In this document: positions 7,931 to 11,343 of the stretch, one piece after another
Layout of the letters: every line of letters starts with the position of its first letter
Numbering within the stretch: the first letter of the stretch is position 1
Source: Microcella alkalica
GTDB lineage: Bacteria; Actinomycetota; Actinomycetes; Actinomycetales; Microbacteriaceae
Length of the DNA: 64,000 nucleotides
Reading direction: 5' to 3'
Assembly (NCBI RefSeq): GCF_014595885.1
Contig: NZ_JABUKC010000001.1
Span: 310,001 to 374,000, forward strand
Translations under genes and position numbers: made by a program
Notes under the pieces: model-generated
Told to the model about the DNA's origin: nothing
Seen by the model: only the letters and a program-made list of their open reading frames with translations
The model's database searches: none

Positions 7931-9148
7931 GTGCAGAAGATCAAGGTCGAGGGCACCGTCGTCGAGCTCGACGGCGACGAGATGACCCGCATCATCTGGC
8001 AGTTCATCAAGGACCGCCTCATCCACCCCTACCTCGACATCACGCTCGAGTACTACGACCTGGGCATCCAGCACCGCGACGTGACCGACGACCAGGTCAC
8101 GATCGACGCCGCCCACGCCATCCAGAAGCACGGCGTCGGCGTGAAGTGCGCCACCATCACGCCCGACGAGGCCCGCGTCGAGGAGTTCGGCCTCAAGAAG
8201 ATGTGGAAGAGCCCCAACGGCACGATCCGCAACATCCTCGGTGGCGTCATCTTCCGCGAGCCGATCATCATCTCGAACATCCCGCGCCTCGTGCCCGGCT
8301 GGAACAAGCCGATCATCATCGGCCGTCACGCCTTCGGCGACCAGTACCGCGCCACCGACTTCCTGTTCAAGGGCGAGGGCACGCTGACCGTCGAGTTCAC
8401 GCCGAAGGATGGCGGCGAGCCGCAGAAGTTCGAGGTCTACCAGGCCCCGGGCGACGGCATCGCGCAGGTGCAGTACAACCTCGACGCCTCGATCCGCGAC
8501 TTCGCGCGCGCTTCGCTCAACTACGGGCTCTCGCGCGGCTACCCCGTGTACCTCTCGACGAAGAACACGATCCTCAAGGCGTACGACGGCCGCTTCAAGG
8601 ACATCTTCCAGGAGATCTTCGACGCCGAGTTCAAGGACCAGTTCGAGACCGCCGGCATCACCTACGAGCACCGCCTCATCGACGACATGGTCGCCTCGGC
8701 CATGAAGTGGGAGGGCGGCTACGTCTGGGCCTGCAAGAACTACGACGGCGACGTGCAGAGCGACACCGTTGCGCAGGGCTTCGGCTCGCTCGGCCTCATG
8801 ACGAGCGTGCTCACCACGCCCGACGGCAGGATCGTCGAGGCGGAGGCCGCGCACGGCACCGTCACGCGCCACTACCGCCAGCACCAGCAGGGCAAGCCGA
8901 CGTCGACGAACCCGATCGCGTCGATCTTCGCCTGGACGCGCGGCCTCATGCACCGCGGCAAGCTCGACGGCAACGCCGAGCTCATCACCTTCGCCGAGAC
9001 CCTCGAGGATGTCGTCATCACGACCGTCGAGAGCGGCAAGATGACGAAAGACCTCGCGCTGCTCGTGAGCCCCGAGCAGGAGTGGCTGACGACGGAGGAC
9101 TTCCTCGCCGCCCTCGACGAGAACCTGAAGGCGCGACTCGGCGCGTAG
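7931..9148 (+). CDS. icd: NADP-dependent isocitrate dehydrogenase, homodimeric type
   Basis: This TCA cycle enzyme converts isocitrate to 2-oxoglutarate with NADPH formation. At 405 residues it is the dimeric type related to eukaryotic IDHs, not the monomeric type of about 740 residues found in some actinobacteria. Visible landmarks are [10 protein letters not shown] near the N-terminus, the substrate-binding KSPNGTIRN loop, and [13 protein letters not shown]. The GTG start at 7931 is preceded by AAAGGA. A strong hairpin follows the stop, so the gene is probably monocistronic. Control may act through the palindrome over its -35 region. Confidence 0.96.
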
Positions 9149-9162
9149 CCGACCGCGAACCG

Positions 9163-9196
9163 ACGGATGCCCGTGGCACGCGCCACGGGCATCCGT
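9163..9196 (+). terminator. Terminator of icd
   Basis: A perfect 15-bp stem (ACGGATGCCCGTGGC with its complement) around the loop ACGC starts 14 bases after the icd stop. TCGTTCTC follows. Confidence 0.8.
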
Positions 9197-9220
9197 CGTT
9201 CTCGGGGCGGTCGCGATCCC

Positions 9221-9239
9221 ATACCCCCGGGGGTATTAT
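9221..9239 (+). promoter_or_regulatory. CsoR/RcnR-type operator overlapping a -10 box
   Basis: ATACCCCCGGGGGTAT (9221-9236) is a perfect 16-bp palindrome of the G-tract type bound by CsoR/RcnR/FrmR repressors. TATTAT at 9234-9239 can be the -10 box, so the operator covers the promoter of the small Cys-rich gene and probably of the metal ATPase behind it. No csoR-like gene is in the window. Confidence 0.7.
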
Positions 9240-9284
9240 CGAGGTGCGCGGCATCGCGCGCCCCGTCTCCGGAAGGAACCGATC

Positions 9285-9401
9285 ATGTGCTCTCCCGCTC
9301 GTTGCGACCGCTGCGGCAAGACCACCTGGGCCGGCTGCGGCCAGCACATCGAGCAGGCGCTCGAGGGCGTGCCGCAGGAGCAGCGCTGCACCTGCGCCTG
9401 A
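9285..9401 (+). CDS. Small Cys-rich putative metal-binding protein (38 aa)
   Basis: A 38-codon gene with a clear GGAAGGAA ribosome binding site seven bases upstream. Six of its 38 residues are Cys (positions 2, 7, 10, 18, 35, 37), arranged as CxxC near the N-terminus, a CGKTTWAGCGQH core and a final CTC. I recall similar unnamed CGKTTWAGCG proteins in other bacteria, but no function. The position directly behind a CsoR-type operator and ahead of a metal-transporting ATPase suggests a metal chaperone, buffer or sensor. That role is inference. Confidence 0.75.
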   Translation: MCSPARCDRCGKTTWAGCGQHIEQALEGVPQEQRCTCA

Positions 9402-9465
9402 CGACGCTCGGCGGTCAGGATGCCCTTCTTGGCGCCGCAGCAGCGTGGCGAGTAGACCTGACGGC

Positions 9466-11339
<1,874 letters not shown>

Positions 11340-11343
<4 letters not shown>

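Follow-up and report, generated by a model that had tools for sequence, protein, structure and literature searches.

A small cysteine-rich protein gene of Microcella alkalica as a probable member of a CstR-type persulfide regulon

A palindrome, a short cysteine-rich gene and an ATPase gene

The window analysed here is a stretch of 64,000 nucleotides of the Microcella alkalica genome (contig NZ_JABUKC010000001.1, positions 310,001 to 374,000 of the forward strand). At positions 9221-9236 it contains a perfect 16-bp palindrome, ATACCCCCGGGGGTAT, with a 2-bp spacer and no strand assigned, which is read below, from its sequence and its copies in the genome and the genus, as a putative CstR-type operator. 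The final three bases of the palindrome overlap TATTAT (9234-9239, plus strand), a probable -10 box that would be built into the operator. GGAAGGA (9271-9277, plus strand) is a likely ribosome-binding site located 7 nt 5′ of the ATG at 9285, which opens a 38-codon reading frame (9285-9401, plus strand). The encoded protein, MCSPARCDRCGKTTWAGCGQHIEQALEGVPQEQRCTCA, is called SP1 here, and its family SP. Together with its conservation, the frame defines the pattern MC-x4-C-x2-C-x-K-x-T-W-x-G-C-G-x-H-x13-C-x-C, with cysteines C2, C7, C10, C18, C35 and C37 and a single histidine, H21. Among the 62 SP genes preceded by the strict 16-mer, the sixth position of the hexamer is T in 46.

The gene for a P1B-type (heavy-metal) ATPase starts with GTG 64 nt after SP1 (9466-11343, plus strand) and is probably the second gene of an operon. 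The ATPase scores above the curated cut-offs of TIGR01525 (514.1 bits, cut-off 346.25) and TIGR01512 (466.2 bits, cut-off 313.5). A TPC motif was read from its translation at the place where CPC is usual in P1B ATPases, and a Pfam search found no HMA domain in it. The isocitrate dehydrogenase-like gene upstream (7931-9148, labelled by eye) lies outside the unit. A simple scan of positions 9100-9500 detected neither a promoter of sigma-70 consensus type nor a terminator. A preliminary description of this DNA had already pointed to the perfect palindrome overlapping TATTAT, to the ribosome-binding site, to the tiny gene with six cysteines and one histidine, and to the adjoining metal ATPase; all four were recovered, with the same residue numbers.

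The possibility that the 38-residue frame is spurious was ruled out by its conservation in relatives and across the phylum and by its codon-position pattern. A search for the family in 60 related genomes by protein comparison found the frame in 37, from 15 of the 33 genera sampled, and a profile search found SP in 64 of 396 genomes sampled across the actinobacterial phylum (39 of 246 genera). A degenerate DNA pattern detected at least 120 contigs with SP, of which, among the matches listed, 119 carry an actinobacterial title. The only other title among these 120 contigs is that of a Poseidoniia archaeon MAG (L176, JAPYSZ010000008.1), a contig that is possibly mis-binned or transferred. Among 14 orthologues from the genus, substitutions at codon positions 1, 2 and 3 number 560, 389 and 789. 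The third position is the most variable, which gives modest support only, because synonymous changes are not the majority (392 synonymous versus 812 non-synonymous codon differences).

SP was also found on 68 plasmid records. In the 40 plasmid rows listed, the match falls where no feature is entered, lies in an unannotated record or is labelled 'hypothetical protein', according to a gene table that is itself incomplete. The gene, which the preliminary description expected many annotation pipelines to skip, is thus real and often unannotated.

Sites of 16 and 17 bp in the genus

Within the window, a search tolerating up to three mismatches returned one site, counted as two strand matches, against a mean of 0.24 in shuffled sequence; since 7 of 100 shuffles gave two or more matches, the window alone is weak evidence for the palindrome. 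The M. alkalica genome contains three exact copies of the site and none of the reversed control, and five sites with up to three mismatches versus two for that control. The degenerate form ATACCCCNNGGGGTAT occurs 88 times in 26 congeneric genomes and its reversed control not once. Together, the copies in the genome and the genus rule out a chance palindrome. One of the three exact copies precedes SP1. The second lies between SP2, a 53-aa paralogue of SP1 (translation P0002, locus L002), and a secreted rhodanese gene. The third precedes a gene for a CoA-disulfide reductase (CoADR)-rhodanese, followed by a second rhodanese gene and by a CsoR-family gene. A site with one mismatch precedes a thioredoxin gene.

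We could classify 80 of the 88 genus sites, in a tally that over-represents loci retrieved via SP: 32 belong to SP genes (two of them common to a rhodanese gene and one to CstR), 16 to CoADR, 12 to a secreted rhodanese alone, nine to thioredoxin and six to DUF4395 genes. The remaining ones adjoin an SQR-like gene (L249), a persulfide-dioxygenase-like gene with TauE (L212), both labelled by eye and from superfamily matches; three sites are unassigned. A set of 28 loci defined by the site only, one from each of 25 genomes plus the three of M. alkalica, gave a similar list: SP at nine, CoADR at eight, rhodanese at seven and thioredoxin at two, with at least one of these at 25 of the 28, and DUF4395 (two loci) and a dioxygenase-like gene (one locus) at the other three. 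The site and the regulon partners of SP are thus supported by sequence comparison. SP belongs to the most frequent targets of the 16-bp site in the genus, and still no Pfam or NCBIfam family covers it. At one locus (L026), a CstR-like gene diverges from SP across a single 16-bp site. DUF4395 is probably a member of the persulfide regulon too, because its membrane protein genes (L205, L218, L227, L238, L242 and L248; label confirmed by Pfam for L205 and given by eye for the other five) begin about 9 nt past a 16-bp site. The sites at L205, L218, L227 and L238 also face a divergent Lon N-terminal-domain-like gene (by eye). Three 16-bp sites (L228:2463, L237:2456 and L250:2494) adjoin an MFS-like transporter gene, a possible lipoprotein gene and an unassigned ORF.

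A related palindrome with a 3-bp spacer, RTACCCCNNNGGGGTAY, occurs 70 times in the same 26 genomes and is present in 25 of them. We examined 29 of these 17-bp sites, in 26 loci (among them L038:5613-5629, L287 near 2984, and L262-L286). Six adjoin a gene for a second CsoR-family protein, CsoR2, and an MBL-fold gene; 13 adjoin genes for other P1B-like ATPases, 33-40% identical to that of the window; three adjoin genes for HMA-type proteins (a label run through Pfam for one of the three, L283); and seven adjoin other genes. The latter include, unexpectedly, Ppx/GppA phosphatase genes, twice (L038 near 9177, and L262).

None of 25 loci with a 17-bp site carries SP, CoADR, CstR, a secreted rhodanese or thioredoxin, versus the 25 of 28 at 16-bp loci. 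Because the gene sets at the two classes of sites differ in this way, one spacer base separates two regulons in this genus, and the operator type of the genus metal genes is not that of SP1. Half-sites alone do not tell persulfide from copper operators. The accessible text on the Streptomyces coelicolor sulfane-sulfur sensor gives its site as ATACCn6GGTAT, a 16-mer (PMC7533328), and in the available part of the report on copper CsoR of Streptomyces lividans (PMC3902906) the half-sites of the consensus, ATATACCCCTNAGGGGTATAT, stand 3 bases apart. Spacer length could therefore be a simple way to separate the two kinds of sites, easily confused, in these bacteria. The rule is not universal, since the sulfur-linked CsoR-family protein TTHA1953 of Thermus binds a quite different site, TACNNTACNNNNGTANNGTA, devoid of a G/C tract, according to the portion of its description at hand (PMC10318464).

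The CsoR-family regulators and the neighbourhoods of SP genes

M. alkalica has two CsoR-family genes in total. The first, behind the CoADR-rhodanese gene elsewhere in the genome (L005:5403-5666), encodes a CstR-like protein of the CsoR/DUF156 family (PF02583, 79.8 bits, cut-off 22.8) whose best PDB chain is 7mq3, deposited as 'csoR'; we take 7mq1-7mq3 to be pneumococcal CstR. It has Cys36 and Cys65, and an alanine at the position of CsoR His61. The second, CsoR2, is of the metal-type C-H-H class, and its gene has its own 17-bp site. Among the matches listed, all 50 CsoR-family neighbours of SP lack a histidine at the His61 position and keep the second cysteine (65). As expected of a CstR, the gene of the CstR-like protein is linked to rhodanese and other sulfur genes and shares the 16-bp operator. 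Three features, namely the length of the spacer, the genes that share the site and the regulator residues, point to a persulfide-sensing regulator of the CstR type, and not a Cu/Ni/Co sensor, acting on the SP1 site. The preliminary description was right about the CsoR family of the operator; its emphasis on metal was, given these three features, misplaced. SP1 itself very probably belongs to this persulfide regulon.

Two-cysteine CsoR-family repressors without the metal histidine also characterize the CstR regulons of Staphylococcus aureus (cstR with cstA, cstB and sqr) and S. coelicolor (ScCsoR, PDO, rhodanese and sulfite transporter). The palindrome resembles the 16-bp ScCsoR site, in the available text on the latter, by its G/C tract and its spacing, and rhodanese, persulfide-dioxygenase-like, SQR-like and TauE genes are found here as well. 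The accessible parts of the reports on these two species do not name SP, the most notable addition seen here, as a target, nor CoADR-rhodanese, a secreted rhodanese, thioredoxin or DUF4395. The regulon type is known; we found no description of the SP family or of its place in such a regulon in the open-access literature, and both appear to be new.

Sulfur genes recur around SP beyond the genus. Within 4 kb of SP, in 120 listed loci, we counted CstR-like genes at 52, CoADR at 50, a secreted rhodanese at 38 (rhodanese queries can cross-match other rhodanese domains) and thioredoxin at 21, the control for these counts being the 17-bp loci of the genus only. At least one of the four is present at 75 of the 120 loci and none at 45, on contigs that are often short. 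Reference-free clustering of the listed loci put these four families at the top, SP itself aside (50, 49, 36 and 18 loci); further clusters among the matches listed, labelled by eye, include SQR-like (12 loci) and MBL dioxygenase-like proteins (10 loci). The option that SP is plasmid cargo was considered, and the same sulfur neighbours appeared at two of three plasmid loci examined. On the Rhodococcus plasmid pRHL3 (L293), SP lies beside genes for thioredoxin, rhodanese, TauE and a 'metal-sensitive transcriptional regulator', and on the Clavibacter plasmid pCM2U (L295) beside those for an FAD-dependent oxidoreductase, a rhodanese and a regulator of the same label. At the third locus, on a Nocardia plasmid, such a regulator and an MMPL transporter accompany SP, in a stretch with no rhodanese or thioredoxin label.

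The spacer is equally constrained around SP. In the 120 listed loci, [AG]TACCCC-N2-GGGGTA[CT] occurs 48 times, and not once with spacers of 0, 1 or 3-7; ATACC-N6-GGTAT occurs 82 times, and at most twice with any other spacing. TACCC-N4-GGGTA is found within 200 bp upstream of SP in 38 of the 120, and the N5 form in none. Since SP itself served to select these loci, the lack of 17-bp sites holds for SP neighbourhoods only. Among the 396 genomes, 41 have both SP and a strong CstR match, 23 SP only, 29 CstR only and 303 neither (odds ratio 18.6, a statistic that ignores relatedness and uses a 1e-22 cut-off picked after seeing the list). A CstR-like gene is located within 5 kb at 33 of 76 SP places in this sample, among the CstR matches listed. 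SP is not always under a 16-bp operator, because, within 200 bp upstream, 82 of the 120 listed loci lack TACCC-N4-GGGTA and just 62 of 197 unique SP genes are preceded by the strict 16-mer, and because the 23 genomes with SP only are among 64 with SP.

These neighbourhoods bear on a reading close to that of the preliminary description, in which SP1 would be a chaperone or metallothionein-like buffer induced by Cu, Ni, Co or Zn through a metal-sensing CsoR/RcnR repressor and working with the P1B ATPase. The proximity of the ATPase gene, which follows SP1 in 12 of 14 genus loci, speaks for it, as do the exchange of Cys and His at the last ligand (see below) and the similar half-sites of the Streptomyces copper CsoR in the available text (PMC3902906). 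Copper CsoR/RicR regulons (CopZ, CopA, metallothionein) likewise combine such half-sites with a small Cys-rich product and a nearby P1B ATPase. They differ by HMA chaperones, by the 3-bp spacer, seen in the S. lividans text cited above and in this genus, and by forming a separate regulon in the genus. The metal genes of the genus and the C-H-H type CsoR2 carry 17-bp sites, SP neighbourhoods hold 48 16-mers and no 17-mer, and an ATPase like that of the window is found near SP at only one of the 120 listed loci. We consider this reading quite improbable. A metal regulon deduced from the neighbouring ATPase alone was rejected, this ATPase being a genus-level partner.

Residues of the SP family and its putative role

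The DNA search pattern fixed the ATG, C2, C7, C10, K12, T14, W15, G17, C18 and G19, and favoured ACW codons, so the invariance of these residues in the 137 listed sequences that it found is forced. Positions free of the pattern are informative: none of the 137 lacks H21 or C35, and the last ligand, never simply lost, is C37 in 80, H38 in 40 and H39 in 17. The first 77 loci, found mostly by the protein search, gave 51 unique copies; there a regular expression forced C2, C7, C10, G17 and C18, and positions free of it are nearly invariant (K12 50/51, G19 51/51, H21 50/51 and C35 50/51). The Cys/His exchange is thus supported in the sequences, and, because it is expected of a metal ligand, metal binding by SP, most likely of zinc, is probable.

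The suggestion of a metal chaperone or buffer in the preliminary description accordingly keeps its protein side, to which the Cys or His at positions 37-39 in all 137 listed sequences and the conserved ATPase of the genus are favourable, and loses its regulatory side, as metal genes carry the 17-bp site. The metal idea survives for the protein and not for its control, because the regulon is of the persulfide type while the Cys/His exchange suggests a metal. A metal-binding protein that responds to reactive sulfur would fit these sequences better than a metal chaperone that responds to metal.

Known families of small zinc proteins, metallothioneins and zinc ribbons say little about SP. SP1 stays below the Pfam and NCBIfam cut-offs (YyzF 12.0 bits for 27, TIGR04129 11.1 for 35). 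Among the families shown for 113 SP members, no E-value is lower than 0.0014 (Pfam) or 0.0017 (NCBIfam), and the commonest ones match 15 and 18 members, weakly. Kinship with YyzF was considered; the likeness to YyzF-like/CxxH-CxxC proteins (PF14116, TIGR04129) is a local one of 12 residues around CGQHIEQALEGV, far below cut-off. We found no convincing entry for SP in Pfam, NCBIfam, PHROGs or the PDB sequences. AlphaFold2 predicts for SP1 a small core of two strands and one helix (pLDDT 87, pTM 0.51), a model that is mute on metal. With this model, Foldseek gave a best E-value of 2.2 and VIA-align found 0 of 24 chains with Z of at least 2, 38 residues being short for both programs.

The locus as a whole is, in our view, somewhat likely to be a unit of a CstR-type persulfide regulon with a zinc-thiolate miniprotein as sulfur acceptor or zinc buffer. 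In the mechanism that we infer, including the joint transcription, the metal and its identity, the persulfide chemistry and the partners, SP1 and the P1B ATPase would form one transcription unit of this sulfane-sulfur regulon. Bound to the 16-bp site, the CstR-like repressor would cover the -10 box; by analogy with its homologues of S. coelicolor and S. aureus, it would leave the DNA after reaction of the Cys36/Cys65 pair with persulfide. SP1 would then be made together with rhodaneses, thioredoxin and CoADR, as a small metal-thiolate domain, most likely a zinc one, with ligands among C2, C7, C10, C18, H21, C35 and C37. Most likely, it would be an expendable thiolate that accepts sulfane sulfur, buffers the zinc freed from zinc-thiolate sites by persulfide attack, or does both. 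SP1 could hand the sulfur to the rhodanese, thioredoxin and CoADR enzymes, and in the genus the co-transcribed ATPase could export the freed metal. The role of SP as sulfur acceptor or zinc buffer, taken for itself, is put forward tentatively.

Two other roles within the persulfide regulon were weighed. SP could be a cysteine sulfur carrier without a functional metal site, in a TusA-like relay from rhodanese to acceptors; the rhodanese, thioredoxin and CoADR neighbours and the five to six conserved cysteines, with C2 presumably exposed as the N-terminus if Met is removed, would suit such a relay. The histidine that replaces the last cysteine in 57 of the 137 listed sequences and the constant His21 suit metal ligation better, and we regard the relay as rather unlikely. 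SP could also be a small zinc domain with a regulatory or adaptor role, binding and controlling CstR, CoADR, a rhodanese or the membrane in response to persulfide. K12 and G19, non-ligand residues, are fixed in the copies that were not selected for them, and many members of the long class (at least 50 aa; among the matches listed, 54 of the 57 sequences of His type and 21 of the 80 of Cys type) finish with a tail of hydrophobic and basic residues, similar to GFFxRLFGR, which could address a membrane. No single partner lies beside all SP copies, however, the 38-aa form of the window has no tail, and in the AlphaFold2 model of a long form (pLDDT 75, last blocks 55-60) the tail is not helical and of low confidence. 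An adaptor role seems unlikely on these grounds.

Returning to the zinc-thiolate sulfur acceptor, it is a possibility, held with reserve, that SP is a new component of persulfide defence, whose ligand cysteines would accept sulfane sulfur and couple detoxification to zinc release and, in the genus, to export, while a single spacer base (16 versus 17 bp) would separate the persulfide and metal regulons of paralogous repressors. If so, the actinobacterial persulfide response would have an overlooked protein component, and the handling of reactive sulfur and of zinc would meet in one operon. Attack on a zinc-thiolate has a parallel in the PerR protein of Synechococcus, whose Cys4-Zn site is attacked by polysulfide, releasing zinc, as far as the accessible text goes (PMC9952342); PerR is a regulator of another family, and no sequence relation to SP is claimed. 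In S. aureus, exogenous sulfide triggers a zinc-limitation response, according to the available part of the study (PMC5480029). Such a limitation would fit zinc buffering and not obviously zinc export, so keeping the zinc may be as likely as exporting it.
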